Position numbers and translations under genes: made by a program. From positions 1 to 37,255 of IMG/VR virus record IMGVR_UViG_3300010397_000067: a DNA stretch of 37,255 nt; one strand, given 5' to 3'. Below, one piece after another: positions 2,349 through 37,255 of this stretch. The notes below the pieces were generated by a model that made no database searches, was not told the origin of the DNA, and saw only the letters and a list, made by a program, of their open reading frames with translations. This DNA comes from a virus. The stretch's first letter is position 1. The number at the start of each line of letters is the position of its first letter.

Positions 2349-2374
2349 GGCCCTTAACCTATCATAATCAAAGG

Positions 2375-2587: not shown

Positions 2588-2606
2588 AACTCCGGCGTTC
2601 GGAGTT
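2588..2606. other. Small hairpin in the 276-nt gap after the DUF932 gene
   Basis: AACTCCG (2588-2594) and CGGAGTT (2600-2606) form a perfect 7-bp stem with a 5-nt loop, 19 nt beyond the DUF932 stop. The rest of 2409-2624 holds no convincing ORF in either strand; an SD-like AAAGGAGG on the minus strand near 2522 is not followed by a usable start codon. Confidence 0.4.
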
Positions 2607-2624
2607 TGTTGCGGGGTGAGTAAC

Positions 2625-3474: not shown

Positions 3475-3478
3475 TGCG

Positions 3479-4009: not shown

Positions 4010-4165
4010 TTAAGCGCAGCTATAGTAGTGCTTGAGAGGCATTCCGGCGGGTAGCTGCATCCCGCATTTCTTACAGGTTGGTTTTCGTGGTGTGTAGTTG
4101 TGTTCGGCTTTGCGGCGGGCTTTGCGTTTAGCCTTTCTGAAATTCGTCCTCTGTGACTGGTTCAT
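4010..4165 (-). CDS. 51-aa basic zinc-knuckle microprotein
   Basis: 51 aa. A very basic N-terminus (RKAKRKARRKAEHNY) is followed by TCKKCGMQLPAGMPLKHYYS and a final CA, giving C-x2-C and H-x3-C zinc ligands near residues 31-50. It starts inside the holin-like gene and overlaps its last 38 nt in another frame, so translation is probably coupled. Last gene of the lysis cluster. It may bind nucleic acid; the family is not recognised. Confidence 0.65.
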   Translation of the reverse strand: MNQSQRTNFRKAKRKARRKAEHNYTPRKPTCKKCGMQLPAGMPLKHYYSCA

Positions 4166-4352
4166 AACGAAGCATCTTGTCTAAAGCCATCAGGCCGCCA
4201 GTAACAAAGGCGATTCCAATTGCATAGGAAAGAGCTTGCAAGTCCGCTAAAGAACTGACGTTAAATTGACTGGCTGCGAGGATTGCGGCGAGATTAGCCA
4301 CGCCACCGGCGATAAACCCACGAAGGAATCTTAGGAGAATTATTTTGGTCAT
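4128..4352 (-). CDS. Holin-like small membrane protein
   Basis: 74 aa. Two hydrophobic segments, residues ~10-28 (FIAGGVANLAAILAASQF) and ~38-57 (ALSYAIGIAFVTGGLMALDK), are separated by a short turn, with a charged C-terminus (EPVTEDEFQ). Size, topology and position 4 nt after the endolysin gene suggest a class II-type holin or a lysis accessory membrane protein. Holins are too divergent to assign by sequence alone; 7344-7529 is the other candidate. Confidence 0.6.
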   Translation of the reverse strand: MTKIILLRFLRGFIAGGVANLAAILAASQFNVSSLADLQALSYAIGIAFVTGGLMALDKMLRYEPVTEDEFQKG

Positions 4353-4356
4353 GTGT

Positions 4357-4899
4357 TTAATTTATTGATGGACACCTTGGGCCAACTACCCAAGGTGAAG
4401 TTGATTTACGGGAGGCTATATATTTGATAGCTGCTCTTACGTTGGCATCGGCGTCGAAGACGCTTAGACCAACCTTACCCTCATCGGTGGCTTTCCATGT
4501 ACCGCTTAGGTACTGGAAAACACCGGAGGCTGACGAACTTTTGTTTTTGCTGAATTGGTTATAACCGGATTCTAGTCTAGCGATACAAAGCGGAACTTCG
4601 GGATTGATTCCGTATTGTGTTGAGTAGTCTCGGATGAGTTGTTGAACTTCTTCCTTGGAATAATACCGTCCACTGTACGTTGGACGTGCCAACTGCACTT
4701 TAGGACTTTGTGACCGATTACTATTCGAGCGTGGTTGCAATGCATTGTCTTTGATTAAGATGTTTTCGCTAACGTAAGGTTGAGGTGGTTTGGTTTTTGT
4801 TTCGACTTTTGGTTTGTATGTTTCTTGGGCCAACGTTTTAAGCGGGACCAGCCAACATACGATGGCTATTAGCGTGAGGGCTACAAGCTTTAATTTCAA
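4357..4899 (-). CDS. Secreted SLT-type lysozyme / endolysin
   Basis: 180 aa. N-terminal signal peptide or signal anchor (residues 4-24, hydrophobic, ending LKTLAQE), a Pro/Ser-rich linker (~30-75), then a lytic-transglycosylase (SLT, lysozyme-like) domain. The catalytic Glu is E110 in CIARLESGYNQFSKN, followed by the SLT motif SSSASGVFQYLSGTWKAT (S124-G126, Q129, T134). It would cleave peptidoglycan glycan strands. A signal sequence means export may be Sec-dependent (SAR-like). Alternatively it is a virion-associated muralytic enzyme, but the holin-like neighbour favours lysis. Confidence 0.85.
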   Translation of the reverse strand: MKLKLVALTLIAIVCWLVPLKTLAQETYKPKVETKTKPPQPYVSENILIKDNALQPRSNSNRSQSPKVQLARPTYSGRYYSKEEVQQLIRDYSTQYGINPEVPLCIARLESGYNQFSKNKSSSASGVFQYLSGTWKATDEGKVGLSVFDADANVRAAIKYIASRKSTSPWVVGPRCPSIN

Positions 4900-5012
4900 A
4901 CATGAGTCCTATATCTCCCTACAGTCGCCTTTGTCGCTCCTCCGTCAATTCAGGGCGGATTTAGGGGAGTTATTGGTCTTATTTTATTTCAGGGAATCTT
5001 CAGCTTTCTCTC

Positions 5013-5018
5013 ATTATA
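5013..5018 (-). promoter_or_regulatory. Candidate -10 box for the lysozyme gene
   Basis: On the minus strand TATAAT lies ~114 nt upstream of the lysozyme ATG, in the only sizeable gap of the lysis region (4900-5020). No acceptable -35 is found 16-18 nt upstream. It would allow lysis genes to be expressed apart from the long late transcript. Confidence 0.3.
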
Positions 5019-5020
5019 TA

Positions 5021-5329
5021 CTATGGACCATCTGGTTTAGCGGAGTTATCCACAGTAGCGCTTTCCTTAGCCTGATGGACCATAGACAGCGTTTCAGCAT
5101 ATCCGGCAATATCAATTAAATTATCCGGCTTATGTTTGCTGTGTTCCCTAACTACCTTGAATAAAATCATGGCTAGGTTAGCCTCTTCTGATGTGATTGG
5201 AGCGGTCAGTTTTTCGGCAAGTAAAGCCGAAAGAAGTGAGGCGTATTTGCCGAAAAAGATAGCGGGGTGGTCGTAGTCTTTTCGGCGGTCGTTGTGAACT
5301 AGGTTCTTCGCTTCATCGAGGACGCTCAT
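5021..5329 (-). CDS. DUF6378-like conserved phage protein
   Basis: 102 aa. The pattern MSVLDEAKNLVHNDRRKDYD-HP...FFGKYASLLSALLAEK-LTAPITSEEANLAMILFKVVRE...KHKPDNLIDIAGYAETL matches a widespread family of ~90-aa phage proteins (DUF6378 in my recollection). These carry a conserved DR-x-DYGHP and K-x-DN-x-D-x-AGY. The all-alpha layout with acidic residues recalls MazG-like NTP pyrophosphohydrolases, which is an inference only. It overlaps the upstream gene by 4 nt (ATGA junction). A perfect DnaA box (TTATCCACA) falls at 5046-5054 within the C-terminal codons. Confidence 0.75.
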   Translation of the reverse strand: MSVLDEAKNLVHNDRRKDYDHPAIFFGKYASLLSALLAEKLTAPITSEEANLAMILFKVVREHSKHKPDNLIDIAGYAETLSMVHQAKESATVDNSAKPDGP

Positions 5330-6147
5330 ATAACCTTGGTGAATTTATCTACCTCGGCGAAGTCGAGTTTGCCATCTGGCTTCAAAGGTGTCGGCAAACC
5401 GTGAGAACGAAGTAAGGTTACTAAACCGTCTTCGCTGGTCGCAGGTTGGGCTACGGCGTATTCAGAACCATTCTTCACTACATAGGCGTTAGTCATATTT
5501 CCTTTCAGCACTATCTTGAGTGCGTAGGGGTGGATTAATGATACGTGGACTTCTTTTAGAAAAGGTGAGTAGGAGTCAAAGTAGTAAGCAGTCTTGCCTT
5601 CTAATGCGACAAGTGTAACTGCGTGGGTTGGGTCGTCTTTAAGAATGATGATTTGAAGCGGACACTGTTTAAGGTGATGACGCAGTTCTGATTCACTAGC
5701 CACTATTCCTTCATAGGCTATATCAACCTTTGTCGCTCGATTAATAACTTCTTGCGGAATGTCAGCATAGTAGGTTGCCCATGTTGCATTAGGTGGAGTG
5801 GGCCAATCAGATTCTTGTACTAAACCAAACTTCCTTACGGTGTCTGCAACTTTGTCCAGGTAATTTCCTTGCGGAGTGGTGTCTGATAGTTTTGCAATGA
5901 ATCTGTCAGACCAATTAGGTTCGCTGCCGCCTTGTTGCTTGGCTTGAATCTCTAAGACGTTTAAGTCAGAGAACGTTACGCAAGCCATTGTTTCGACCGG
6001 ATTCTTTTGTTTCTCCGCTACGGGTAAGTAAGGTCGCCAGTCTCCAGACTCTAACTTAACCTCATAAGGTATCGTTCCTCCTACCCAAAGACTTTTTGTA
6101 GCACTGCCGAGAAGAACACCAGTATTTTGTTGTGGGATGTCGGGCAT
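5326..6147 (-). CDS. Papain-like (C1/C39-type) cysteine-protease-fold protein
   Basis: 273 aa. Residues ~20-200 have the order of a papain-like fold: ETMACVTFSDLNVLE with candidate catalytic C56, then PTHAVTLVAL with H175, then AYYFDSY with D191. The early GATKSLWVGGTIPYEV block and SDRFIAKLS...GNYLDKVADTVRKFGLV give the impression of a phage/bacterial papain-fold family. The C-terminus (KPDGKLDFAEVDKF) looks like a dockerin/EF-hand-type calcium loop. Probable role: a peptidase or amidase acting on peptidoglycan or virion proteins. It starts at a TAATG junction with the exonuclease gene and has AAAGGAG upstream. Confidence 0.7.
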   Translation of the reverse strand: MPDIPQQNTGVLLGSATKSLWVGGTIPYEVKLESGDWRPYLPVAEKQKNPVETMACVTFSDLNVLEIQAKQQGGSEPNWSDRFIAKLSDTTPQGNYLDKVADTVRKFGLVQESDWPTPPNATWATYYADIPQEVINRATKVDIAYEGIVASESELRHHLKQCPLQIIILKDDPTHAVTLVALEGKTAYYFDSYSPFLKEVHVSLIHPYALKIVLKGNMTNAYVVKNGSEYAVAQPATSEDGLVTLLRSHGLPTPLKPDGKLDFAEVDKFTKVI

Positions 6148-14834: not shown

Positions 14835-15710
14835 TTACTCATAATTAATGTTTTCAGCTTGAAGTGAGATTTGGCCGGTATGCACTGAGAAGTCGTTGAA
14901 GAGTCGGGCTTCCATTTCTTTATACATGCGGTCGTAAAGTTGCGCCTTGCTTGTGTCGGGTTGAATAGAAGTAAAGTAGGTTCTAAGGGCGTCGTAAACA
15001 GGAAGCTCACAGTAAGCTTCGGGCAAGAGAGACATTTGGCCTACGATGTAAGCTGCGTTACCGGCTGCGATAGAAGTCCCTTGGTAGGATTTGAATAGAG
15101 TAATGGTTGTAGTTGAACCACTAGACACTATCTCATACCAATAACCATCGCCTTTGTTAGCAGTATCGCTTTCAGTAATTCGCAAAAACCTTCCTGCCAT
15201 CGAAGCAGTCCAGGTCGTGCCGGTCCCCACAATCGCCGTTGACCCATTAGTGGCTGTAAGAACGCCTCCGGTCGTGTAGTCGGCAATCGACAGGTCTTTA
15301 GGTACAGCTCGACCAAAGAAGTTGACGGTTGCTCCTCCGTTAAGAGGGGTGGGGAATAGACCAACCTTCCCTGCTCGCTTGTAGAAGTGGGTGGGGATAT
15401 CAGAAGAGATAGAGGTTTGAGTTAACACTTGCCAATCACGTTCGGAAGAAACCTCTTTGGGTGTATAAGTGACGTTATTGAGAGTGACACTAAGAGTTTC
15501 GAGCTTGCCGATGCGCTGCGGGATTTCAATGAATTGAGTGGCGGCACTCGTAGTAGCTGTGTCGGTGCGTTCCAAGAAGGGCCACTGGAATAAAGCTAAA
15601 ATCCGCTTTTCAGCGACGTTCATCAGCGTATCAGCAGTAGTGAGATTGGCTGACGTCGAATTGTTGGTGAGGGTGCCGAACAAATTGCGTCGGCCTGTAT
15701 AGCTCAACAT
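14835..15710 (-). CDS. Head-tail adaptor-like protein
   Basis: 291 aa. The N-terminal helices and strands (TADTLMNVAEKRILALFQWPFLE, FIEIPQRIGKLETLSV, SDIPTHFYKRAGKVGLFPTP) resemble podovirus adaptor or tail accessory proteins of the P22 gp4/T7 gp11 type as I remember them. Residues ~145-230 hold an inserted Thr/Gly-rich beta domain (GGVLTATNGSTAIVGTGTTW). A C-terminal helix pair (PEAYCELPVYDALRTYF...YDRMYKEMEARL) returns to the adaptor pattern. Would close the portal ring and receive the tail. Confidence 0.6.
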   Translation of the reverse strand: MLSYTGRRNLFGTLTNNSTSANLTTADTLMNVAEKRILALFQWPFLERTDTATTSAATQFIEIPQRIGKLETLSVTLNNVTYTPKEVSSERDWQVLTQTSISSDIPTHFYKRAGKVGLFPTPLNGGATVNFFGRAVPKDLSIADYTTGGVLTATNGSTAIVGTGTTWTASMAGRFLRITESDTANKGDGYWYEIVSSGSTTTITLFKSYQGTSIAAGNAAYIVGQMSLLPEAYCELPVYDALRTYFTSIQPDTSKAQLYDRMYKEMEARLFNDFSVHTGQISLQAENINYE

Positions 15711-16339
15711 TAAATGTAGTTGATTTCTTCTCCACGACGAACGGCGTCATAACGCTCATTCATAAAGGAGGGATTAAAAGTCTGATTGAAAGGATGTTTG
15801 ATTTGCTTGTTGTGAGAAAAAGCTATTGCTTTGTTGTCTCTGAGTAATTTGAAATTGTAATTAGCCAGGTGCGCTCGAAGGGCTACGTTTACGTTATCTC
15901 CTGCCCAGTGACCGTCCATTTCTTCATCGAAGCCGCCTATCTTTTTTAGACAATCGAGCGGAGCGGCTCCCCAATCAATCTCCCAACTCTGCCAAGTCAT
16001 CTGAGCGTCGGGGTGCGCTCGCCAGTCCCACTCTGTGTTGGTCCAATCGACGGTCTGACCTACGGGTGCGGTAAAGAAAGTGTAAGGGTCTTTCTGGTAA
16101 GCATCCCAAAACTTTTGCAAGCCATCGTGGTCAATCTTTATGAAGTCTTGGTAAGAGACTATAAGTTCTCCTTTTGCGCGACGAAGCATTCGGTTATAAG
16201 CCGCGTTGAGGTCGTGCTTGGTCCGCAAACCGATTTCGACTAACCATTCGAAGTCGGTGAATGTTTGGCGCTCAAGACATTGTTGATTATGTGAGAGTCC
16301 CTCGGGTCGGATTGAAGGAGTTAAGACGCTGATTTGCAT
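15710..16339 (-). CDS. Family 2-type glycosyltransferase
   Basis: 209 aa. GT-A fold start MQISVLTPSIRPEGLSHNQQ with FTDFEWLVEIG, then GELIVSYQDFIKIDHDGLQK in place of the usual DxD strand, and GGFDEEMDGHWAGDNVNVAL, which matches the acceptor-side ED/DN region of GT2 proteins. It would transfer a sugar from a nucleotide sugar. It sits inside the virion operon, sharing one base with the adaptor gene and overlapping the GT4 gene by 19 nt, so it is expressed with capsid and tail genes. Target unknown; virion proteins or a surface glycan are likely. Confidence 0.8.
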   Translation of the reverse strand: MQISVLTPSIRPEGLSHNQQCLERQTFTDFEWLVEIGLRTKHDLNAAYNRMLRRAKGELIVSYQDFIKIDHDGLQKFWDAYQKDPYTFFTAPVGQTVDWTNTEWDWRAHPDAQMTWQSWEIDWGAAPLDCLKKIGGFDEEMDGHWAGDNVNVALRAHLANYNFKLLRDNKAIAFSHNKQIKHPFNQTFNPSFMNERYDAVRRGEEINYI

Positions 16340-17274
16340 AGGCCATCTTCTAAGGATTGAGCATATTTGTGTTCACTCCACTTATCCAAAATGTAATCTC
16401 GAGTATTAACTTCTGTGTCTCGCAGTTGAAGGATTGCATTTCTAATCTTTTCGGGTTCAGGGTCAACTACTAACCCTTGCCCACACTCATACACATATTC
16501 ACTTGTCTTATCTGAGTCCTTCATTGCAATTACGGGAATGTTCATAGCCATCGCTTCTAATACTGTGCGTTGAGAGCCACCAGTCCAGAAAGAAGTGATG
16601 CAGCAAGTTTTGGACGCGGCATATAGGTATCGAAGTACCTGGGGGTCAACATGGGGAAGAGCAAGTGAACCTGTCTTTTGTACCCAGCCGATAATCGGGT
16701 CTTCGTCGGCGACGATGTAGCCCGCTGTTACGCTGCGCAGTCCTTTCGTAGCTTCGGCGTATAAGTGGTGTCGCTTCCATCCCGCATAGGTTGCGGGTAA
16801 ACAAGCATCAAAAACTTTCTGCTGTTCTGGTATTGGTTTGAAAAGGTCTGTATTGGTTCCGAAAGCTGTCGATACTGATTTGCCTAATGCCTCGAAGCGT
16901 TCTTTATAACTCTGTGATTCAACGAAGAAATGGTCAAAGTATCCGTATGTTGGACCATCCACTTGGCCCCCGGCAAAACACAGGGCCATGGGGATGTTCA
17001 ATTCGCTTAGAGGGGCGGCATTCGGTCTGGTGCAGTCTCCCCACATTAGAATGACGTTGGGTTTGAAGAGTGCTACGTCACGTCGGATGTCCGTGGATAC
17101 CTGTATAGAAAAGTAGGGATGGTAAAGGGTATAGTCTTGGCCATTCATTGAACAGGTAAGAATCTGAACTTCGTGGCGTTGTGATAACTTCTTGATTGCG
17201 GCTGCGAGTCCGTCCTGCCATGTGAAGGTTTGCGGGTCGTAGCTGGGCCAATCCCATACAAAGGATAGTTTCAC
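16321..17274 (-). CDS. Family 4-type (GT-B) glycosyltransferase
   Basis: 317 aa, GTG start overlapping the previous TGA. The N-terminal Rossmann half (MKLSFVWDWPSYD...WQDGLAAAIKKLSQRHEVQIL) and the C-terminal donor half with TSFWTGGSQRTVLEAMAMN, then IPVIAMKDSDKTSEYVYE, give the GT4 E-x7-E-like signature region. An unusual feature is the short linker between halves. Belongs with the adjacent GT2 gene and the 777-aa GT2/GT4 fusion to one modification set. Confidence 0.85.
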   Translation of the reverse strand: MKLSFVWDWPSYDPQTFTWQDGLAAAIKKLSQRHEVQILTCSMNGQDYTLYHPYFSIQVSTDIRRDVALFKPNVILMWGDCTRPNAAPLSELNIPMALCFAGGQVDGPTYGYFDHFFVESQSYKERFEALGKSVSTAFGTNTDLFKPIPEQQKVFDACLPATYAGWKRHHLYAEATKGLRSVTAGYIVADEDPIIGWVQKTGSLALPHVDPQVLRYLYAASKTCCITSFWTGGSQRTVLEAMAMNIPVIAMKDSDKTSEYVYECGQGLVVDPEPEKIRNAILQLRDTEVNTRDYILDKWSEHKYAQSLEDGLCKSAS

Positions 17275-19218: not shown

Positions 19219-19729
19219 AAAAGTCTAATTGCTTGTTTAAGTCTTCAATGTCGTAAAGCGTATCCCTGATAGAATCGAGCTTGGTTTCGTCAAATACCTT
19301 ATCGACCACTCGGTGTTTCTTGTTTTCAAATGCTTGGTCTAATTGTTTTTGTTTTTGTATTTCCCTTTTCTTGTGGTCTATGTCGGCCTTAACACGTTTC
19401 ATATCACCCCTACTTAAAACGCCTTGTTTCAATTGCTGTTCGATGTCCGGTTCAAAATTGGAAGGATTGAGCGTTTGCAACTTAGCCCGCTTTTCGTTTT
19501 GTAAAGCAACGTAAGTCCAGACTGCATCTAGCTTATCCATGCCGCGGTTCTTAGAAAGTACTTTCAAGATTTCAAAGCGGGCGTTTTTATCTTGAAAGTA
19601 GGTAACAATGTCTCGGAGTTGGTTGTACCTTTGCGGATTTGTAATCTCGTAATCCTTCATTCCAACCAATTGAATAACTTGGGTGGCGATAAGGGGGTCG
19701 AGATTTAAGCTATTAAAAGTTCGTTCCAT
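19211..19729 (-). CDS. Helical hypothetical protein between glycosyltransferase and virion genes
   Basis: 172 aa from the ATG at 19729 (MERTFNSLNLDPLIATQVIQ); a TTG start at 19750 would add seven residues without a better SD. Almost entirely helical with heptad-like stretches (LKQGVLSRGDMKRVKADIDH, KKREIQKQKQLDQAFENKKH). The start lies 25 nt inside the 777-aa glycosyltransferase gene, implying coupling. Unknown function; helical size would fit a tape or assembly factor, which I cannot show. Confidence 0.6.
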   Translation of the reverse strand: MERTFNSLNLDPLIATQVIQLVGMKDYEITNPQRYNQLRDIVTYFQDKNARFEILKVLSKNRGMDKLDAVWTYVALQNEKRAKLQTLNPSNFEPDIEQQLKQGVLSRGDMKRVKADIDHKKREIQKQKQLDQAFENKKHRVVDKVFDETKLDSIRDTLYDIEDLNKQLDFYD

Positions 19730-22038
19730 TGATTTGCGATGACAGTCCAATCAAAAGTTTTCTTAGCCCACTGTCGCATAATTAATCGAGTCTCTTCGGA
19801 AGGCGGGTTTTTAAGTAAGTCGATAATCTTGTCGGCCATCTGGTCCAATAGAGTTTCGTCTGTACAAGCAAAATCTGTTTGTCCAGGCAAAAACCAAGTG
19901 TCGTTAGTTAGGTTGGAGTGAAAGAAGAAACCGCCGTGTCCCGCTTTTTCACCGACTGCTGAAAAATCTGTTGCGACGGGTATGGTTCCAGCGGCCATTG
20001 CTTTTGAAAGAGAGATACAATCAATTTCAGCGAAGCCGGAAGGATAAGCCCATACATTAGCTGTTAAAGAAAGGCGAGCTATCTCATCGTGATTGACGCG
20101 GCCAACCTCCTTGATGCCAGCGTCCTTAACTGCTTTCTGCACCGAGGCTTTCCAATCCATCATTGCTTGGTCATCGCTATAGGCGGCATCAAAGGTTCCC
20201 CAACCATAGGCCCATACGCATTCGGCATCAGGCACAGCTTCTTTAATCTTGGGGAATATCTTCGCCAACGCGGTGATGCTTCGGTCGGGGGCGGAAGTGT
20301 TAAGAATGAGTTTTGGATTGCGGGTCGGCTGGTCGAACTGTGTGGGGTCAATGCCATTAGGAATGACCACAAACTTGTTATCAGGAGCTTCAGGGAAAAG
20401 TGAACGGTGGAACTTCGATTTAACTAAAATCTTTGTAACGCGCTCTAAGCGAGAAGGCGTGAGTTCTGCCGGCTGAATAACATCATGAAGGTCTAAGTAA
20501 ATCTTGGGAGCATTGATTTCAAAGTCTAGGTAAATGGGTACTCGCCACAACACAACCACGTCTTGCTTGTCTTTATAATTCCACGTCCAGTATGGGGCGT
20601 AAGTGACGTTACCAAATTTCTGTGTCTTGTGACCGCAGTTATTGTAAACGGTTACATTCCAGCCTTTCTCAGTTAAGAGATTGCTAAGGTGGTAAACAGC
20701 TTCCTCAGAACCTCCGATGCCTTTTGCTTTAATCGTGTCGGGAGTCCACTCCTCTTGGGTGTATCCACAGTAAATGACCAAATCCTTGCCGGAGCTTTCC
20801 GTTTTGAGGAAGTTGATATTTCGTAAATTACAAATACCGGGATGGGACTTGAATTCGTCTGGAATTTTATCAAGCTCTCGACGGAGCTTTTCTTTGTCTT
20901 CGATTTTCGAAAGCCTTTTGATGAGCTGGACGACTTTGTCAAACTTGACGACTTCTTTTTTGATGACTTTGATGAGGTCTTTGACTTGCTGGTCATTGGG
21001 ATAGATTTTGGCACAACCTTCTAAGAGAGGGAGCGCGAAGTCTGGACGTGCAAGTTTGAAGTAGACCTTCGCCAACTCCATCATGGGAACGTAGTCGTAA
21101 TCCCTGGGGTTGTAGACGATTATTTTGTGATAAGGACGTGGCTTGGGAAGGCCGGTTAAATACATCTCGGCGGCCTTCTGCAAGAGGTTCATTTGAGAAT
21201 AAAGAGAACCGAGAGTGAAGTAGGCATCAGGGAAATTAGGCTTTATACCTACAGCAGTTTGCGCATGAAGAATAGCATCGTCATTCTTGCCAATGGTCCA
21301 AAGAACTTCGCTAAGACGAAGGTGAGCAATGTATTTTTCATCCTCGCTCTTCGACATGGATAAGAACTTGATAAGGTTCTCAAACGCTTCTCGATATTGC
21401 TCGGTGCCGACATAAGAGTTTCCGACGTTCCAGTAGGAGCGCGGGTCGTCAGGTTCATCGGCTAATTGAGCAAGGGCTATTTCTAAATTACGGTGCGCTG
21501 CTTGTTCGTAACGCTTTGGATTAGAAAGGTGGATACGTTCGATACCGTCGATGTGATAGCGCGTGAGCTGCCGGTTCTCTCGGAAGTCTTCGTGTAATCT
21601 GCCTACCCAAGTTACACAGCCATCATTCTTAACAACTTGGGTCTTTGCATGAACGACGGTCGGATTCTTGTTCTCATCGAACGCATACATGTAAAAGAAC
21701 GAATAGGCATCTGCCGGATGCTCTTTGATGATGTCTTTGAGTTGCTCTAAACCGCGAACAGCATCATCAGCATCAAGCCACAGAATATACTCATAGTCTT
21801 TAGGGACTTGTGAGAAATTGAAATTCCTGGCTTTCGAGAAATCGTTACACCACTCGAACTGCGACACGTGAGCTTTGTAAAGCTGACAAACCTCAGTGAC
21901 TTTGCTGTTTGGCTGCGTAATGGTTACGAAGATGCCATCAACGTAAGGTGCGGTAAGGGATAAACACTGGGCGAGAGCGTGGGCTTCATCATCTGTACCT
22001 TTGCAGATTAAGGCAAGAGCGATTTTGGGTGAGGTCAT
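19705..22038 (-). CDS. Bifunctional GT2-TPR-GT4 glycosyltransferase
   Basis: 777 aa, three parts. Residues ~1-180: GT2 domain (KIALALICKGTDDEAHALAQ, YILWLDADD with the DxD at 89-91, GRLHEDFRENR). Residues ~185-350: tetratricopeptide-like helices (NLEIALAQLADEPDDPRSYW, YFTLGSLYSQMNLLQKAAEM). Residues ~430-777: GT-B/GT4 domain (IGGSEEAVYHLSNLLTEKGW, VIPNGIDPTQF, SGFAEIDCISLSKAMAAGT, IPVATDFSAVGE). TPR-linked glycosyltransferases commonly modify Ser/Thr in proteins or act on surface glycans. The gene is inside the virion operon between capsid and fibre genes, with 4-nt overlaps, so late co-expression and virion glycosylation are likely. Confidence 0.9.
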   Translation of the reverse strand: MTSPKIALALICKGTDDEAHALAQCLSLTAPYVDGIFVTITQPNSKVTEVCQLYKAHVSQFEWCNDFSKARNFNFSQVPKDYEYILWLDADDAVRGLEQLKDIIKEHPADAYSFFYMYAFDENKNPTVVHAKTQVVKNDGCVTWVGRLHEDFRENRQLTRYHIDGIERIHLSNPKRYEQAAHRNLEIALAQLADEPDDPRSYWNVGNSYVGTEQYREAFENLIKFLSMSKSEDEKYIAHLRLSEVLWTIGKNDDAILHAQTAVGIKPNFPDAYFTLGSLYSQMNLLQKAAEMYLTGLPKPRPYHKIIVYNPRDYDYVPMMELAKVYFKLARPDFALPLLEGCAKIYPNDQQVKDLIKVIKKEVVKFDKVVQLIKRLSKIEDKEKLRRELDKIPDEFKSHPGICNLRNINFLKTESSGKDLVIYCGYTQEEWTPDTIKAKGIGGSEEAVYHLSNLLTEKGWNVTVYNNCGHKTQKFGNVTYAPYWTWNYKDKQDVVVLWRVPIYLDFEINAPKIYLDLHDVIQPAELTPSRLERVTKILVKSKFHRSLFPEAPDNKFVVIPNGIDPTQFDQPTRNPKLILNTSAPDRSITALAKIFPKIKEAVPDAECVWAYGWGTFDAAYSDDQAMMDWKASVQKAVKDAGIKEVGRVNHDEIARLSLTANVWAYPSGFAEIDCISLSKAMAAGTIPVATDFSAVGEKAGHGGFFFHSNLTNDTWFLPGQTDFACTDETLLDQMADKIIDLLKNPPSEETRLIMRQWAKKTFDWTVIANQWNELLIA

Positions 22039-22415: not shown

Positions 22416-23354
22416 TTACGGTAAGGTTAACGAGAAGCCGTCTGCATACCAGTTTGAGTCCTGGTTATGAACTTCGAGAGTGAACTTACCGACAATCGCA
22501 CGATTGTCGTAGTCACCACTGCGAGCCAAACCAGTATCAACGTAAGGTTTTTGCAGGAAGGCAATTTTCAACTTCTCTGGACGTAGAGCCAAGACACGAC
22601 CAACTGTTACGTTGGCATCGCTGGACTGTTGTAAGTAGCGATGAGTGTGAAGGTTCAAAGTACCAAAGGCAGTTTGATAGGTAGAAACAGTGCGTACAAC
22701 ACTGGTCATGCCAACACCATTGACTACTACGTTGCTCTTTTGAGTGAAGTAGTCAGTAGCCTTGCGCAAGAACGAACCCATGAATAGGTCGGTAGCCACA
22801 TCACCATTGCTGTTATCCCAGTTGAGTTTCATTAACCCATCTAAGATGGTGGCGTTCCAGGTTACAGCGGAAGTGTGAGAAGTGTAGTTCGTGCTCTTGG
22901 AGATAGCAGCGATAATACCGTTCAACTTCGGAGCAGTACCGGATACACCGGAGGCGAGAGTAGCACGGACCAAATCGAATTCGGCGGCGTTAGCCCAATC
23001 CATCAAAGCTTTTTCAGTTTGGCGCTGCAATTCATTACCACCTTGATAGTGGGAAATGTCTTGCTGAGTGCGCGAAACTTTGAAGTTGATGGCAACGATT
23101 TCGACAATGTTCGTTAAGCGGCTCGGGGTTGAGTTGGCGCTGGCAGTGTAGTCAGCGGCTTCCTCAACGGCTTGCGAAGCGGCAGTGCGTAACGTATCAG
23201 TCAGATAAGCGTGAATGGTGTTGATAGCAGTCGTCTTGCCTAACATGTTGAAGATTTGAGTCTCCCGGGCAGTTAGGATTTCGATAGCGTTCATCACCAC
23301 GTCTTCGCGAGCAGATACGTCACCGTATGTACGCAGAATTGCGTCTGATGCCAT
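22416..23354 (-). CDS. Major capsid protein, SU10/DUF5309 type
   Basis: 312 aa. Features of the SU10-like HK97-fold coat family (DUF5309 as I recall): early YGDVSAREDVVMNAIEIL with TARETQIFNMLGKTTAINTI, then AVEEAADYTASANSTPSRLT, NIVEIVAINFKVSRTQQDIS and a late LEVHNQDSNWYADGFSLTLP. Length is normal for the family. The gene follows the scaffold gene and precedes the hairpin at 22361-22392, as expected for the most abundant late product. It assembles into the icosahedral shell. Confidence 0.85.
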   Translation of the reverse strand: MASDAILRTYGDVSAREDVVMNAIEILTARETQIFNMLGKTTAINTIHAYLTDTLRTAASQAVEEAADYTASANSTPSRLTNIVEIVAINFKVSRTQQDISHYQGGNELQRQTEKALMDWANAAEFDLVRATLASGVSGTAPKLNGIIAAISKSTNYTSHTSAVTWNATILDGLMKLNWDNSNGDVATDLFMGSFLRKATDYFTQKSNVVVNGVGMTSVVRTVSTYQTAFGTLNLHTHRYLQQSSDANVTVGRVLALRPEKLKIAFLQKPYVDTGLARSGDYDNRAIVGKFTLEVHNQDSNWYADGFSLTLP

Positions 23355-29400: not shown

Positions 29401-29739
29401 CTAGATTAATTCAGGACACGCCTGAATATACTTGATTGCATTCTCAAACCGAACAATATCGTCTGCAAACATTCCCAATCCAGTATTACAATTTCCACAT
29501 AACAAACCACGAACCTGTTTAGTTAAGTGACAATGGTCTATATTCAGTTTGGCCTTCTTCCGACAAATAGCACAGGCAAACCCTTGTTTCGCCAATAGCT
29601 TTTCAAAATCCTGCCTCGTAATCCCATATTGTTCAATGGTGCGAACCTGCTTCCATTGACCAGTTGCTTTACAAGGAGGGCAATACCTCATTCGTCTGTT
29701 AGCCGGTATAAAATCTATTCCACAATTCTTACAAATCAT
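29401..29739 (-). CDS. Recombination endonuclease VII (HNH, T4 gp49-like)
   Basis: 112 aa from ATG 29739 (a TTG at 29790 would add 17 poorly conserved residues). Order: two N-terminal CxxC knuckles (CKNCGIDF, CPPC), EQYGITRQDFEKLLAKQGFA, CAIC, LNIDHCHLTKQVRGLLC, NCNTGLGMFADD. This is the EndoVII-type HNH core with zinc cysteines and catalytic DH/N. The family resolves Holliday junctions and branched DNA before packaging. It is the first gene of the leftward small-protein set and faces the + strand cluster across 216 nt of regulatory DNA. Confidence 0.9.
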   Translation of the reverse strand: MICKNCGIDFIPANRRMRYCPPCKATGQWKQVRTIEQYGITRQDFEKLLAKQGFACAICRKKAKLNIDHCHLTKQVRGLLCGNCNTGLGMFADDIVRFENAIKYIQACPELI

Positions 29740-29810
29740 ACGTAAAGAATTTTTCTTAGCCCGGATTAGTTGGCTTAAATAAGCACACAACTAGAAATGC
29801 GACGCGTAAG

Positions 29811-30114: not shown

Positions 30115-30259
30115 TTATCCTCACTCTGGCTACCCTCAAGGCTTACAGCATTATCACAAGACAACTTTCTACATTAACGTAGATTGGAAAGCAGTAGCGT
30201 GTTTGGTCGGTGGCGCGCTGATAGTAATCATGGCGTTTTATTCAATGCGACCTATATGA
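30089..30259 (+). CDS. 56-aa single-span membrane protein
   Basis: MKPYLSPRSYPHSGYPQGLQ then HYHKTTFYINVDWKAVACLV and GGALIVIMAFYSMRPI. One C-terminal membrane helix (~38-53) after a Tyr/Pro/His-rich soluble half. Its TGA makes ATGA with the HNH start, strong evidence for real coupled translation. Function unknown. Confidence 0.65.
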   Translation: MKPYLSPRSYPHSGYPQGLQHYHKTTFYINVDWKAVACLVGGALIVIMAFYSMRPI

Positions 30260-30735
30260 ATTGGCGAGGTGGTAAAAGTAAAAAGAACTGTGAACAATGC
30301 TTACTTGATTACAAAACATACCGAGAGAAACAACGCTTTTGTTCTAAAGCATGTTACGGGCTGGACCGCAAGATTAACGACTATCCAGGCAAGTACGGAA
30401 AACAACATTGGACATGGAAAGGCGGTATTACTAAAGATAAAGTCTACGTCAGTTGGTTAAAGAATCGTCGGAATCGGTTCGTCCAGAAAATCAGAAATCA
30501 TACCTTCCAACAATGGCAAGAGCTAAAACAACTTTATCGCTATACCTGCCCAAGATGTAATCGCTCGGAACCTGAGATTAAGCTTACTGAAGACCATATT
30601 ATCCCTCTAGCTCGTGGCGGAGATGACTACATCGGAAATATCCAACCTCTTTGCAGAGTTTGTAACGGCCAGAAGCATTTAAAATTAATCTACTATGAGC
30701 CAATCCTTGGCCTAATAGTGAAAGGAAATCAGTGA
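30256..30735 (+). CDS. HNH endonuclease with N-terminal zinc finger
   Basis: 159 aa from ATG 30256; an upstream start at 30184 is less likely because of the ATGA junction. C12-x2-C15...C29-x3-C33 form a zinc finger; the HNH core is YTCPRCNRSEPEIKLTEDHI with D113-H114, then IGNIQPLCRVCNGQKHLK (N128, C133-x2-C136). McrA-like HNH layout. Function: nicking or cutting of DNA, possibly host DNA degradation, packaging-related cleavage or homing. Confidence 0.85.
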   Translation: MNWRGGKSKKNCEQCLLDYKTYREKQRFCSKACYGLDRKINDYPGKYGKQHWTWKGGITKDKVYVSWLKNRRNRFVQKIRNHTFQQWQELKQLYRYTCPRCNRSEPEIKLTEDHIIPLARGGDDYIGNIQPLCRVCNGQKHLKLIYYEPILGLIVKGNQ

Positions 30736-31567: not shown

Positions 31568-32035
31568 ATGAGACCAATCAAATTTAGAGCAAAACGAACT
31601 GACAATCACCCTGTTTTCTGGGCGTATGGTTATTTAGTTAAAACACCTATCACAGCAGAATTTAATGACGTTCATGGAGCATTTTTTGACAGTGCCTCTG
31701 CTGAAAAAACTGAATGGGCAGGTAGATATTGCATTGTGACCGAGCATGGGGTCGCTCACGAAATTGATATTGAAACTGTTGGGCAATTCACAGGACTCTT
31801 GGATAAGAACTCTGTTGAAATTTACGAAGGTGACTTCCTTAATTGGAACAATGACGGATTAAAGTGGCTTGTAGTCTGGGAAGATGGTGCCTTCCGTATG
31901 AAGTTAATTGAAACCCCTGCTTCTGAAGTACCTCTATACGAAAACCTATTCAATCGCAGAACTAAGTATTTACAAGTAATCGGAAACAAATGGGAAGACC
32001 CAAGGGCAGTAGAAACGCCAGCCACAAAAGAATAG
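31568..32035 (+). CDS. YopX-family protein (copy 1)
   Basis: 155 aa. MRPIKFRAKRTDN start, then VGQFTGLLDKNSVEIYEGDF and the end VIGNKWEDP: the typical YopX signature (R-x-I-K-F-R-A...Q-T-G-L-D-K-N/G-x-I-Y-E-G-D...V-I-G-N-x-x-E-N/D-P). YopX proteins are phage early proteins of unknown function. The last 46 nt overlap the HNH gene. Confidence 0.9.
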   Translation: MRPIKFRAKRTDNHPVFWAYGYLVKTPITAEFNDVHGAFFDSASAEKTEWAGRYCIVTEHGVAHEIDIETVGQFTGLLDKNSVEIYEGDFLNWNNDGLKWLVVWEDGAFRMKLIETPASEVPLYENLFNRRTKYLQVIGNKWEDPRAVETPATKE

Positions 32036-32343
32036 TCAGTCATGGTTATATTCACTTATTTGAGCCGAACCACCCTTTAGCAATGAAGAACGGCTATGTC
32101 CGTGAACATCGGAAGGTGCTGTATGACGCAGGAATAAAAGTTAGGCCAAACCAAGAAGTACATCATAGAAATGGCATCAAAGCTGATAATCGTTTAGTAA
32201 ACCTCCAAGTTCTTACGAAGCCACAACACACCTCGATTACCTGGAAAGGAAAGAAACGTAGACCTTGGACCAGAGCTGAACGAGTAGCTAAGAGCAAAGC
32301 TATGCTAGGTAATAATAATTGGAAAGGAGTATATGCAACGTGA
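31990..32343 (+). CDS. HNH homing endonuclease wedged between two YopX genes
   Basis: 117 aa. GYVREHRKVLYDAGIKVRPN, then QEVHHRNGIKADNRLVNLQV with H58-H59, N61 and N67/N71 of the HNH nuclease, then a basic C-terminal half (KGKKRRPWTRAERVAKSKAM). It starts inside the first YopX gene and ends inside the second (11-nt overlap), so no intergenic sequence is lost. Free-standing HNH nucleases spread by copying themselves into uninterrupted phage relatives. Confidence 0.85.
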   Translation: MGRPKGSRNASHKRIVSHGYIHLFEPNHPLAMKNGYVREHRKVLYDAGIKVRPNQEVHHRNGIKADNRLVNLQVLTKPQHTSITWKGKKRRPWTRAERVAKSKAMLGNNNWKGVYAT

Positions 32344-32862: not shown

Positions 32863-33581
32863 TTTTCGGTTTAAATTTAGCAGACCATGAAGAAAGCGTA
32901 GTCCATAGGACTGTGAATTAGCGGTTAAATTGTTGCAATTACTAAAGAAATCTTTAAGGACCGGCGTGGAAAAATAAGAAGTCAAAGCGATTGACATTTC
33001 AAAAGAGTGAATCAAAGACTACTGGTGCGTTGCACAATTGCCGGAGAAACTACGATGCAATCTCACCGTTACAGTGTAATTGCCACGTTCAGGGAAGGAA
33101 TTTACAGCGGCTATAATTGCAGTAGACGAGACTACAATTTCATTAGGATTACTCTTGAGTCTTCCTCAGATTCCCCAAACCTGATTCCAGGACAAACCAA
33201 CCAAACAGCTTTAGCTGGCTCCATATAGGCGACGTGCTTTTCATCGTTCCTGTGCCTACTGCTCTCAATATTTTAGCAAACGCTGTTAGGTTAGATTCGC
33301 TCTAGGCGAATCATTGTCCTTGATGGCAGATAAAGTATCCGTGAACCAAGCTCTCACAGTTTACAAATGGATAGCCATGCTCCAACCTTATAACCAAACC
33401 TACTAACAGATACATTCAGACTGCCTATTCCTCTTCCACTTATGGCGAACGGAAGTGAGCCGAATTGTTTACCAAATTTTCCCTGTAGTAGGACGTTCAA
33501 AAAGCAATGTAAATGTTGAGATTAAAAGACTAGGTTAGATTAGGTAAGCTTGTCGGGTTTTACATCCAAAACGGTCCAGCT
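32863..33581. other. 719-nt largely non-coding stretch
   Basis: No convincing gene. One + strand frame (33055-33228) has GGAG near its ATG but encodes Ser/Asn-rich sequence without a recognisable fold. A TTGACA at 32991-32996 lacks a good -10, and a TATAAT at 33112-33117 lacks a good -35. Small palindromes (AGTCC-ATA-GGACT near 32900) and the hairpin at 33286-33312 are present. The region is the gap between the phage early region and the coupling-ATPase operon, so it may contain a junction or a decayed gene. Confidence 0.5.
33286..33312. promoter_or_regulatory. Hairpin element B (pairs in design with 28219-28245)
   Basis: TTAGGTTAG (33286-33294) leads into GATTCGC-TCTAG-GCGAATC (33294-33312). 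Lead 9-mer, loop and core GCTCTAGGC equal those of element A, while the distal stem pairs differ in a compensating way. Same orientation as element A. Confidence 0.6.
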
Positions 33582-34328
33582 TTAACACTCCAAATCGAGA
33601 ATAGACAACCAACGATTCGGGTCCAACGGTGAGACAAAGACCGGCTCATAAGGACCTTCGATGACGCTTTGGTGTTCAGCGACAAGGAACTGATTACCGC
33701 GTTTGAAGTCGGGCAGAACGTCTAAGAGGATAGACTTTGCCCTGGCTCTGGTGGAGGTAAAGACAACATGAAACCTCCGGTCGGGATGAAGCTTGGAGAG
33801 TTCGATGTAGCGTTCGACTTTCTTACGAATGACGGCCAAGGTTTCCGTTCCTTTATCCACTTCCCAAAAGATAATCCGTCCCTCGATATTGCTTGAGCGG
33901 TCTGGCTTCAATCCTAATTCCAAATACTCTTCATGCGGGACGCTCTCCCAAAACCGGATGTTCCACGTCAAACTGTAAGTCACATACAAATCGGCACAAG
34001 CCCGCTCATGTTCATGGTTAGTATTCCGTAGGCCGATGACTTGGGGCGCGTGGAAGTAAAGAGGACTATTATTTTCCCTAGGTATCTTAGTAACTTTGAT
34101 TAGGCTACAAATCTTGCAGAAGCGTTTATGGTAGTCGCCTGTGCGGTTTAAATTATGGTCACACCTCGGATAAGCCATTCGGTTCAAGAGTCGGGTAACA
34201 CCGACATAACCCGGCGGCAATTCTTTACTCGTCAAAAACGCTCTTTGGCCGCTTGATAGCACCGCGAATTGTCTTGCGGTTAGGTGTGGTTCGTTCTTTA
34301 GATGGTTGAGTATCGATTGTCGTTCCAT
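33582..34328 (-). CDS. Replication-relaxation family protein
   Basis: 248 aa. N-terminal winged-helix part (LTARQFAVLSSGQRAFLT...VTRLLNRM), a zinc-like insert (CDHN...H..RFCKIC, residues ~56-73), then the family core HEHERACADLYVTYSLTWNI, RFWESVPHEEYLEL, IIFWEVDKGTETLAVIRKKV. These are the hallmarks of replication-relaxation proteins found on conjugative plasmids and ICEs, often beside a coupling ATPase, as here. They are thought to act in relaxation or initiation of transfer. The start lies 104 nt inside the ATPase gene. Confidence 0.8.
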   Translation of the reverse strand: MERQSILNHLKNEPHLTARQFAVLSSGQRAFLTSKELPPGYVGVTRLLNRMAYPRCDHNLNRTGDYHKRFCKICSLIKVTKIPRENNSPLYFHAPQVIGLRNTNHEHERACADLYVTYSLTWNIRFWESVPHEEYLELGLKPDRSSNIEGRIIFWEVDKGTETLAVIRKKVERYIELSKLHPDRRFHVVFTSTRARAKSILLDVLPDFKRGNQFLVAEHQSVIEGPYEPVFVSPLDPNRWLSILDLEC

Positions 34329-35724
34329 TGAATCTGCGCTTCATCTGCTCCCTGATTTCCTTGGGCGTGTAATTCCACTCATGCGTGAGACACTTGGCAA
34401 TGAAGTCCCTTTCCTGCTGCCGGCTAACTTTCGGGTCCGCTACATCTGGAATCTTTACCCTCATAGGTGATTGCTTGCCCGATTTAATAATGGCGTACTG
34501 CTTGGGAAGGTCGGCGTTAGCGTAAGAAGCCATCAAGGGAGTGATTTCGCCACCGTACCCGAGCGCTTTAATCATTTCCAATCGGTCGCTGTATCCCGGG
34601 GTATTGAACATCACCTTAATCTTGGTTAGTTGCTTGACCGCATCGGCTTTATCTTTGGGGAACTGAAAGAAGCCCTGATGGGCAAGAGAGACGCGGAAAC
34701 CGGATTTGCGTTTTAAGGCCAGCACTCTTACTAGCTTGTCGTTGATGTACTCTCCAGCCTCGTCAATATACAAATAATATGGACGTGCGTAACCCCGCTG
34801 CCTTAGTCGGTACATCGCAAACAGCAATTCGTTAATTACTGCGGTTCCCAACAAACGAGTGTGAAGCGGGTCAACACCGGCTTCGGCGTCTAAGTTAACG
34901 AGGATTACCCAACCGTCAGTAATCATTTTCGTAAAGTCAATCCCCTTATCAGCGCCGAACATCAAATCAAGGGTGGAATCAAAAAACGGCTCAAGTCTCC
35001 TGACAGTCGAACCGAATTGGTTATCGAACCTAGGGTAAGTTTCGAAAACTTCTTCCAGCGCCAACTTATGAGGGTCCATCGGATGCGAGGCGTCTAAGAT
35101 TTCCTGCCTTCGTATCCTGCCCATTTTGTAATTCCGAAAGTGGTTAGCCTCGTGGAGTGTCATGCCAGCATTCCACAAGACATTTAATAAGGCGGGAAGG
35201 TATCGCTGAATGCGGGGTGTTTCAGCCGCGTCTTTGGTCTGAAAGAGAATGCGAACCGTATCCATCAGGTTAGATACGGTAGCTTGCTTATAGGTCTTCT
35301 GACGGTGAAACGGTTGGATTGCTGTTATTCGTCCGTGGGAATGAAGAGTATGCGGGTCAATCAAACAAACTTTCTCGAAACCGATAGACGCGCAATAACG
35401 AAGGATGCGGTAAGCGGTATCAGCTCTGTCGGTGGGGTCTAGGAAACAAACTCCACTTCCCTGTTTGATGTCGCCTCGGATTAAGTGTTCTATGAAGCGG
35501 GACTTACCCTCGCCTGTAGTCCCTAAGATGTGAAGGTGGGATTCGCGGTCTTCTTCTGAAAGATAGAGCTGGCCTTCGGCACCAGTACCCAACAACCTAA
35601 GCGGATGCTTGCTCCTGACTTGCTTCAGCCTCTTCTGAATCACCTGCTCCGCTGTCGTCTGCCGAAAGACTTCTTCTTTCTTCTTCTCCAAGCGTAGCTT
35701 GTATAAATCTATCTTGTTCGCCAC
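34225..35724 (-). CDS. VirD4/TraD-like coupling ATPase (T4SS type, HerA/FtsK fold)
   Basis: 499 aa, GTG start with AGAGG nine nt upstream. Walker A GTTGEGKS (68-75) in HLHILGTTGEGKSRFIEHL; Walker B YYLYIDEAGE (D321-E322). Other TraD-type blocks: DPTDRADTAYRILRY, ALKRKSGFRVSLAHQGFFQF, TKIKVMFNTPGYSDRL. The C-terminus is basic. No N-terminal membrane helices are present; the adjacent membrane coiled-coil protein may supply the anchor. Would pump DNA during conjugative transfer or a related process. No relaxase or mating-pair genes are in the window. Confidence 0.85.
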   Translation of the reverse strand: MANKIDLYKLRLEKKKEEVFRQTTAEQVIQKRLKQVRSKHPLRLLGTGAEGQLYLSEEDRESHLHILGTTGEGKSRFIEHLIRGDIKQGSGVCFLDPTDRADTAYRILRYCASIGFEKVCLIDPHTLHSHGRITAIQPFHRQKTYKQATVSNLMDTVRILFQTKDAAETPRIQRYLPALLNVLWNAGMTLHEANHFRNYKMGRIRRQEILDASHPMDPHKLALEEVFETYPRFDNQFGSTVRRLEPFFDSTLDLMFGADKGIDFTKMITDGWVILVNLDAEAGVDPLHTRLLGTAVINELLFAMYRLRQRGYARPYYLYIDEAGEYINDKLVRVLALKRKSGFRVSLAHQGFFQFPKDKADAVKQLTKIKVMFNTPGYSDRLEMIKALGYGGEITPLMASYANADLPKQYAIIKSGKQSPMRVKIPDVADPKVSRQQERDFIAKCLTHEWNYTPKEIREQMKRRFNGTTIDTQPSKERTTPNRKTIRGAIKRPKSVFDE

Positions 35725-36370
35725 GAATCAAATCCTCTGCGGTCTTGATGTTGTAGTTAAGCTGAGAAAGCTTGTCGTCTTTCGCAGCGTCGTCCGAAGC
35801 TTCAATCTTCTTGCGCTGTTCATACATCGAAAAGAGCCGGTGAGTAGCGCGGTCGATTAAAGCAAGCTTAGTTTGCTCTACCCTGTCAATATTCTCTTGG
35901 TCTTGTTGGTACTCCGTGGCCCTAGCTTCCAAATCAATCTGTTTAAGTTCCCGGTGAAGCGAAATCTGCAAAAAGGTGGTGATGTCCATGCTGGACGCGA
36001 GAGCGAGGGTCATTAACTGGTTGCGAGTTTCCAGCTCTATGCGCTCAGCTCTCAGTTTCTCGATAGTGGTTTGTTGACGCTCAAACTCAACCTGACGTGA
36101 GCCCTCCTGAACGGCAAGGTCAGCTTCCCTTTCCGTGTTGTGGTCTAGTTCGGCCTGTTCTTCGTTAAGAAGCTTTAAGAGATTAACCCTGGCTTGAGCA
36201 ACTACGGTTTCCTTGCGGGCTGCAAAGCGGGTCATGCCCGTTGCGTACTTGGCTGAGATTTCTAGTTTACGTATCTCGGGGTCATTGGAATCTTTCTCAT
36301 ACCCGTACATCAACAGATAGACGACTACACCTATCAATAGCATTCCCACTACGATGAGAATCCAAGACAT
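35597..36370 (-). CDS. Membrane-anchored coiled-coil protein of the ATPase operon
   Basis: 257 aa. One N-terminal membrane helix (residues ~3-23, WILIVVGMLLIGVVVYLLMY), then long heptad helices (~40-205, e.g. RQQTTIEKLRAERIELETRN, YQQDQENIDRVEQTKLALID) and an acidic Ser/Glu tail. Its last 128 nt are also the N-terminal codons of the ATPase in another frame. Could tether the soluble ATPase to the membrane. TAATG junction with the lectin-like gene. No known family. Confidence 0.65.
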   Translation of the reverse strand: MSWILIVVGMLLIGVVVYLLMYGYEKDSNDPEIRKLEISAKYATGMTRFAARKETVVAQARVNLLKLLNEEQAELDHNTEREADLAVQEGSRQVEFERQQTTIEKLRAERIELETRNQLMTLALASSMDITTFLQISLHRELKQIDLEARATEYQQDQENIDRVEQTKLALIDRATHRLFSMYEQRKKIEASDDAAKDDKLSQLNYNIKTAEDLIRGEQDRFIQATLGEEERRSLSADDSGAGDSEEAEASQEQASA

Positions 36371-36873
36371 TATTGAACCGTAATTTGAACAGTTAGAATG
36401 CCAGCGTTATCGTTAAAACTGTCGGTATCGTTGATGCTTAGATAAAGTCTCCCTCGTTGGCCGCTAACTTCATAATCACAACCAACAAAGAATGCAGCAC
36501 TGTCAGTCTTACCAACTAAAGCCCGAAAAGGAGCATTAGCGACTAGAGTTCCGGGCCACGAACCATTACCCATACAATCGGAATAGACTGACGGTGTATG
36601 TTTGCCTACCTCATTGGTCCATTGACCGCCGATGTATTTGACTGTTACTCGCTTGTCCGTAACATCGATACCAGTATCAAACCACTTCTTAGTAGCAGGG
36701 ACTTCAAGCATCCGCGATGACGGTTGCGAAGACGATTGAAAGCTCGGCTGAGCCTGTGATTGTTGGGGTATTTGCGCCGGGGTCGGGCTACGAAATAGAA
36801 AGTAAACCCCGAGACCCAAACAGGCCATGCCGATAAGGGCAATAATGGGAAGCCAAATAGAGGAACGATTCAT
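36370..36873 (-). CDS. Membrane-anchored LecA-like lectin-domain protein
   Basis: 167 aa. N-terminal membrane anchor (residues ~6-27), Ser/Gln/Pro linker, then a beta-sandwich starting ATKKWFDTGIDVTDKRVTVK and continuing YIGGQWTNEVG, FRALVGKTDSAAFFVGCDYE, GRLYLSINDTDSFNDNAGIL. W-F-D-T-G-I...G-x-W...L-x-G-K...F-F-V-G...L-Y-L-x-I-N-D is the pattern of PA-IL (LecA)-type galactose-binding proteins. It would face outwards and may bind host or recipient glycans. First gene of the operon. Confidence 0.7.
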   Translation of the reverse strand: MNRSSIWLPIIALIGMACLGLGVYFLFRSPTPAQIPQQSQAQPSFQSSSQPSSRMLEVPATKKWFDTGIDVTDKRVTVKYIGGQWTNEVGKHTPSVYSDCMGNGSWPGTLVANAPFRALVGKTDSAAFFVGCDYEVSGQRGRLYLSINDTDSFNDNAGILTVQITVQ

Positions 36874-37018: not shown

Positions 37019-37103
<85 letters not shown>

Positions 37104-37121: not shown

Positions 37122-37255
37122 ATGAAAACTGAACTTATTGACGTCTCTCCAACTCGCAAGGAGATCAAAATCGAGATCGAGCCGGCGCAGATTCGCGACG
37201 CTTACGATCGCATCAGCAAACAGTACAGCAAGGGCGCAAACGTCCCCGGATTTCG
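37122..37255 (+). CDS. tig: Trigger factor, N-terminal part (runs off window)
   Basis: 44 codons visible: MKTELIDVSPTRKEIKIEIE, AQIRDAYDRISKQYSKGAN, VPGF. The ribosome-binding N-terminal domain of trigger factor, a ribosome-associated chaperone and peptidyl-prolyl isomerase, ends its signature at G-F-R-x-G-K, of which VPGF is seen at the edge. GC and codon use are those of a chromosomal gene and unlike the phage genes. Marks the host side of the boundary. Confidence 0.9.
   Translation, partial: MKTELIDVSPTRKEIKIEIEPAQIRDAYDRISKQYSKGANVPGF

Follow-up and report, generated by a model that had tools for sequence, protein, structure and literature searches.

A VirD4/TraD-like ATPase and a replication-relaxation protein retained together in an SU10-like phage genome beside tRNA-Leu

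Why would the genome of a tailed phage carry a coupling-protein-like ATPase next to a relaxase-like protein, a pairing known from mobilizable plasmids? We addressed this question in the complete IMG/VR record IMGVR_UViG_3300010397_000067 (37,255 bases; hereafter the window, or G000), most of which, apart from its right end, is filled by a single SU10-like phage. Four overlapping open reading frames (ORFs) on the minus strand occupy positions 33582-36873, between phage early genes and a tRNA-Leu gene. An earlier note, made from the letters alone, had described these four genes at the same coordinates as an operon for a VirD4/TraD-like ATPase, a replication-relaxation protein, a membrane coiled-coil protein and an exported LecA-like lectin, and had asked whether transfer-type and phage structural genes share one element or belong to two elements stacked at one site. 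The operon and its surroundings are as follows.

33095..33340, minus strand: candidate for a structured non-coding RNA, immediately 3' of the operon, with flanking conservation to about 33480
33582..34328, minus strand: Replic_Relax protein, 248 amino acids, candidate MOBC-type (PD-(D/E)XK) relaxase
34225..35724, minus strand: VirD4/TraD-like DNA-translocating ATPase, 499 amino acids, without a transmembrane (TM) domain
35597..36370, minus strand: 257-amino-acid protein with an N-terminal TM helix (residues 1-25) and a long charged, probably coiled-coil region
36370..36873, minus strand: 167-amino-acid protein, first gene of the operon, with an N-terminal membrane or signal anchor (hydrophobic residues 3-29) and a beta-rich domain
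37019..37103, plus strand: tRNA-Leu (ARAGORN and Rfam tRNA), on the host side of the right-hand junction and a possible attachment-site context
37122..37253, plus strand: 5' end of the host gene tig, trigger factor (Trigger_N, 4.3e-06)

The first gene of the operon is joined to the second by a TAATG junction, in which the stop codon of the 167-amino-acid protein overlaps the start codon of the 257-amino-acid protein. Scans of viral contigs with the ATPase or with Replic_Relax returned nothing or a single relative, contig IMGVR_UViG_3300009101_000214 (G001, read in stretches L005 and L007), which came from the Replic_Relax scan. L005 starts with a partial tyrosine integrase, a 118-amino-acid membrane protein and a TM protein at the position of the coiled-coil protein, and continues with the ATPase (73% identical), Replic_Relax (79%), a non-coding block, early genes and the virion genes, the module having the same order and strand as in the window. 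The ATPase and Replic_Relax genes overlap in both contigs, by 104 nucleotides in the window and by 110 in L005, and the tRNA-Leu/tig region is absent from the relative. Three virion genes of the window served for comparison.

22416..23354, minus strand: major capsid protein (phrog_1328, 7.5e-45), 91% identical in L005
24294..26102, minus strand: SU10-like portal protein (PF23899, 1.8e-11), 82% identical in L005
26099..27358, minus strand: terminase large subunit (phrog_2472/phrog_2), 87% identical in L005

The ratio of non-synonymous to synonymous divergence (dN/dS) between the two contigs was 0.097 for the ATPase and 0.076 for Replic_Relax, as compared with 0.061 for the terminase, 0.071 for the portal and 0.044 for the capsid protein, values that are approximate, since dS was near saturation. 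The pair is thus under purifying selection like the virion genes and has diverged together with them, and its conservation in an independent contig shows that the operon is not a chance run of reading frames. The fact that this contig has the pair in the same place, behind an integrase and ahead of colinear phage genes, identifies it as a long-retained module of the phage and not a second, stacked element. Transfer-type and phage structural genes therefore do lie in one element, as one of the two original suggestions had it.

The non-coding block between the 3' end of the operon and the early genes was itself conserved, with 79-86% nucleotide identity to L005 (3941-4410). Folded as an alignment on the operon strand with RNAalifold, it reached -58.8 kcal/mol, as compared with -27.9 +/- 4.1 kcal/mol in column shuffles (z -7.6, 0/300), and it contained nine doubly compensated pairs where 2.65 were expected (0/300 shuffles), a count drawn from two sequences only. 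The opposite strand was weaker (-40.5, z -4.5). At several paired positions one sequence has G-C or A-U where the other has G-U, a further sign of an operon-strand RNA. Folding of the single sequence was only mildly unusual (z -1.7). Rfam gave no match in 33095-33340, and 87 sources and 42 whole records searched with an RNA model yielded no further copy. A coding explanation was rejected, as the two sequences share no long frame, and in the one open frame of the best-conserved stretch the differences are mostly amino-acid-changing. The element may act as an RNA tied to the operon, or it may belong to an origin.

Profile searches bore out the identities proposed for the two conserved proteins. 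The ATPase matched SXT_TraD (1.8e-16) and conj_TOL_TraD (1.6e-08), and TrwB_AAD_bind at 7e-4 in the window and 3.4e-06 in L005; its Walker A (GTTGEGKS) and Walker B (YYLYIDE) motifs are those of a nucleotide-binding domain of the VirD4/TrwB type. Its gene overlaps that of a PF13814 protein, an adjacency to a relaxase-type gene that is kept in L005. Neither the window nor the L005 protein has a hydrophobic segment that could serve as an N-terminal TM domain (19-residue scan of the window protein), confirming that the ATPase lacks membrane helices of its own; coupling proteins without such a domain exist (PMC7434980). The Replic_Relax protein scored 31.3 bits against PF13814, and its L005 homologue 41.5 bits, at a curated cut-off of 25.3. 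PF13814 is listed as a MobC relaxase domain (PMC5357655), MOBC relaxases have a PD-(D/E)XK active site and are grouped with those nucleases, and TraX of pAD1 has a winged helix-turn-helix (HTH) (PMC12857230). The window protein carries the motif PD(142-143)...E156-x-D158...K..Y, which is common to L005 and recurs with W for Y in a more distant relative (G021, described below); related variants were seen by eye in Bacillus phage proteins. Profile comparisons of the N-terminus, as a winged HTH, aligned about 25 residues and only weakly, and an AlphaFold model from two sequences, with a helical N-terminus, was too poor for use.

The two outer proteins of the operon are a different matter. A TM segment at the N-terminus of the 257-amino-acid protein agrees with the original description, and its coiled coil was assigned by inspection only; it is a plausible candidate for a membrane partner of the ATPase. 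The protein at its position in L005 (1012-1824) is only about 23% identical, a level at which homology is not established. The lectin identity of the 167-amino-acid protein was rejected: it had no Pfam match up to E=10 and no sequence match to LecA in the PDB, and PA-IL (PF07828) matched nowhere in the window. Its AlphaFold model, from one sequence, was all-beta and of low confidence (predicted local distance difference test, pLDDT, 44), and Foldseek on this unreliable model gave non-significant matches only, PllA/LecA-type lectins among them (E 0.15, 0.77). No counterpart was found in L005 or in a scan of viral contigs with this protein, and the proposed contact of a lectin with the recipient cell is not supported.

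We then asked how widely the module occurs among related phages. Portal and capsid alignments gathered about 80 further contigs, and 50 of the longer ones were compared. An integrase (PF00589) was present in G001, G005 and G041, a PF10412 ATPase in G001 and G005, and PF13814 in G001 and G021. The ATPase thus occurred in two of three integrase-positive records as against 0 of 47 integrase-negative ones (Fisher's exact p=0.0024), in a sample with three positives, many fragments and related sequences, and in which G001 was known from the earlier search. The 41-kb contig G005 (stretch L020), whose portal is 49% identical to that of the window, encodes an integrase, an ATPase, a winged-HTH-like protein and a second, clearly VirD4-like ATPase in one run (1-5364). 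Its two ATPases differ and are of conjugation/HerA type, the VirD4-like one matching T4SS-DNA_transf (3.3e-10) and TraG-D_C (3.7e-08); the winged-HTH-like gene had no Pfam or profile match and is relaxase-like only by position and appearance. The Replic_Relax gene of G021 (L109) starts 81 bases from the contig end, so that any upstream ATPase is cut off. Beside it, between the Replic_Relax gene and the terminase (2531-5389), we noted an EcoRII-type restriction gene next to a DNA-methyltransferase-like gene. No match to the mating-pore proteins VirB4 (PF03135) or VirB6 (PF04610), which would mark a self-transmissible conjugative element, was found in G000, G001, G005 or G021; all four are without end repeats and may be fragments, as may be reflected in other absences among the relatives. 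Portal and Replic_Relax had no match in 50,697 phage records, and neither the ATPase nor the portal alignment found anything by tblastn in 84,980 prokaryote genomes, a weak negative given the narrow degenerate-pattern method.

The pairing has known counterparts, and the earlier statement that no system with this gene set had been described holds in part. Mobilizable plasmids with a coupling protein of their own are MOBC plasmids such as CloDF13 (PMC5704250, PMC7434980), and integrative mobilizable elements (IMEs) can carry PF13814 with VirD4 (PMC5357655). CloDF13 (MOBC1; MobC relaxase and MobB) resembles the module, in gene content, in pairing a relaxase of the PD-(D/E)XK class, for which Replic_Relax is a candidate, with its own VirD4-type ATPase and no mating pore; it differs in that here the genes lie on a phage genome and a separate membrane protein sits beside an ATPase that lacks MobB's TM domain. 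Streptococcal IMEs of class 8, in which PF13814 is paired with VirD4, likewise combine the two genes with a neighbouring integrase in a small integrative element, but with serine integrases, whereas relatives of the present phage carry tyrosine integrases (PMC5357655). The Sinorhizobium fredii plasmid pSfHH103a2 (NZ_LN735562.1) has an integrase-like gene, hypothetical genes, a VirD4-like ATPase without TM domain overlapping Replic_Relax by 14 nucleotides, and RepA; it is a plasmid, with no virion genes in the stretch read and only about 21% ATPase identity. In the Microcystis 'phage' Mwe-JY31 (L003), an ATPase of this kind is accompanied by a Rep3 initiator and by a neighbour that resembles Replic_Relax weakly, scoring below the cut-off; although the record was deposited as a phage, the genes examined (the Rep3 initiator, a ParA-like gene and the coupling-type ATPase) are plasmid-like, with no virion gene annotated.

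Among phages proper, a translocase-type ATPase with Replic_Relax is found in Bacillus phages. Tyroviruses and Novomoskovsk have been described with these kinds of protein (PMC9703825, PMC9658697), the tyroviruses (gp17-gp19) having a type IV secretion system (T4SS)-type protein, a replication-relaxation protein and a tyrosine recombinase beside ParM. Pony (L114, gp26-27) and 268TH007 (L115, gp32-33) have an FtsK-like ATPase overlapping Replic_Relax, followed in 268TH007 by HTH genes and a tyrosine integrase; the 268TH007 pair is part of a 2.5-kb block that the 96%-identical sister 268TH002 lacks (PMC9476937). The tyroviruses and 268TH007 share with our lineage a tyrosine recombinase nearby, but these are unrelated Firmicutes phages, with no membrane partner or RNA noted, and the Pony ATPase is FtsK_SpoIIIE-type and not VirD4-like. 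The pair is therefore already annotated in phages, and it turns up repeatedly on phages and plasmids, with the type of ATPase varying, as the Sinorhizobium plasmid, Mwe-JY31 and the Bacillus phages demonstrate. What we did not find described is the combination of a VirD4-type ATPase, a membrane partner, an SU10-like phage genome and an adjacent structured RNA. Conjugative transfer of a prophage has a precedent in Phi1207.3 of Streptococcus pyogenes (PMC4260502), a different phage for which the paper names no relaxase and leaves the mechanism unexplained.

What, then, does the module do? Our tentative answer, which we hold at somewhat short of an even chance, is that it is a MOBC/VirD4-type mobilization module like that of CloDF13, acting on the phage circle via a helper pore. 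The phage would be excised as a circle, and Replic_Relax, as a nickase with a winged HTH and a PD-(D/E)XK-type nuclease fold, would cut one strand at an origin site. A hexameric VirD4-like ATPase would pump the cut strand; lacking its own TM domain, it would be anchored in the membrane through the TM/coiled-coil protein. As no mating-pore genes were found, we propose that the strand exits by way of a pore supplied by a conjugative element resident in the cell, which would give the phage a second, virion-independent transfer route. Mobilization is supported by the retention of the pair alongside the phage core genes of L005, with dN/dS similar to that of the virion genes, by the association with integrases, by the modules of G005 and G021 and the arrangement in pSfHH103a2, and by the published pairing of PF13814 and MOBC relaxases with coupling proteins.

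Several observations weigh against it. Transfer of the phage by the module is read from the genes, and no origin of transfer (oriT) was identified in the phage. An integrase, which the earlier note had advised looking for, had no match in the window record; the left end of the window is a contig cut beyond which an integrase, an attachment site and replication genes may lie, and integrases do occur beside the module in G001 and in G005. The PD-(D/E)XK fold of Replic_Relax is a candidate assignment made from the motif, the model having a pLDDT of 38.7. The ATPase scored far under the curated TraD cut-offs (59.8 against 366 and 33.6 against 647.6 bits), and by sequence we class it for this reason as a relative and not a member of TraD. 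CloDF13 MobB requires its TM domain (PMC7431656), which the window ATPase lacks, and the low conservation of the membrane protein is odd for an essential partner. In the papers on Bacillus phages, moreover, such pairs are assigned to plasmid maintenance, DNA injection or induction, and not to transfer.

These readings lead to the alternative that we consider doubtful yet well worth weighing, an intracellular, plasmid-style module without cell-to-cell transfer, in which nicking of the circle by Replic_Relax would initiate or control replication and the ATPase would resolve, position or segregate DNA, to the benefit of an extrachromosomal or early lytic stage. The tyrovirus genes, which lie next to ParM and have been interpreted as those of a plasmid prophage (PMC9703825), the overlapping pairs of Pony and 268TH007, the latter beside its HTH and integrase genes, and CHC2/DnaG-type primase genes near the module in G005 and G021 all favour it. 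On the other hand, the partner ATPases are conjugation/FtsK-type translocases and not helicases, and the annotated ORFs included no recognisable ParA/ParM or Rep gene, in a window whose missing left end may have held replication genes. A role in defence or superinfection exclusion, with a membrane-tethered HerA/FtsK-type ATPase and a nuclease degrading or blocking incoming DNA as in HerA-nuclease systems, appears improbable. The ATPase does weakly resemble HerA and mad8 defence models (mad8, 7.8e-09), its partner has a PD-(D/E)XK-like motif, and membrane and exported proteins accompany them; but TraD-type models score better, PF13814 is a family of plasmid and mobilization proteins, the pair is found next to RepA on a plasmid as well, and the match extends to the ATPase only, with none for Replic_Relax in a HerA-nuclease system and no PADLOC match for the other three operon proteins.

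We give a smaller chance still to a transjugation-like donation, in which ATPase and nuclease would export donor DNA without a T4SS. Its model is ICEth1 of Thermus, where a four-gene operon with the DNA-pump ATPase TdtA and a NurA-like nuclease belongs to an integrative element inserted in a tRNA gene (PMC5365140), and it would accommodate the lack of VirB4 and VirB6 homologues in the window, G001, G005 and G021. ICEth1 is not a phage, however, the likeness to TdtA is one of analogy, the model leaves the passage through the outer membrane unexplained, and the four records may be fragments. Least credible is that two mobile elements are stacked at tRNA-Leu or that host genes lie next to a phage. 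In its favour, the window has no integrase or second attachment site and neither outer protein of the operon is conserved in L005, but it is largely refuted by an independent phage contig that lacks tRNA-Leu/tig and has the pair in the same order with the same early genes next to it, by the co-divergence of the pair with virion genes and by the conserved RNA between the operon and the early genes.

Among the other proteins of the window there was also a match to DNA-packaging gp3, and the phage is probably temperate, judging from the host-like tRNA-Leu/tig junction at its right end and the integrases of its relatives; a repeat search found no attL/attR repeat of the tRNA-Leu region in the window, whose left end is missing, or in L005. 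An early suspicion that the phage has no replication genes was dropped because the contig is cut at the left, and a reading frame at 293-496 ending in VEDIPW, which resembles the acidic tip of single-strand DNA-binding proteins, hints that replication genes continue past that end. Three glycosyltransferase-like proteins lie within the virion gene block (15710-17274 and 19705-22038). One of them, of 777 amino acids, is kept near the capsid gene at 51-56% identity in several divergent relatives, and may for this reason be a core gene of the lineage. A DUF932-like gene (2625-3347) has a 57% identical counterpart at the far end of G005, and a DUF932 gene is also present in the Microcystis element Mwe-JY31. 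The early regions hold several HNH-type genes and two YopX genes (1098-1589, 29401-29790, 30184-30735, 31990-32343), with one HNH gene fused to an AP2 domain and the HNH label of 29401-29790 given by inspection only.

Relaxase/coupling-protein pairs recur in unrelated phages, where annotations usually leave them unexplained. The present data suggest that a plasmid-like way of moving or being maintained could also be open to some integrating phages. The boldest form of this idea, an integrating SU10-like lineage with a split coupling-protein/relaxase module and a dedicated RNA for transfer origin or control, that is a dual-route phage using both conjugation and virions, we consider unlikely. 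The covarying RNA is a separate and checkable discovery, and the link of the module to integrase-bearing members of an integrase-poor lineage provides a concrete hypothesis on when it is used. If the module mobilizes the phage genome, then the phage could spread without lysing cells and reach hosts beyond those that its tail allows, and a single defined operon would make it possible to test where the line runs between phages, phage-plasmids and mobilizable elements.

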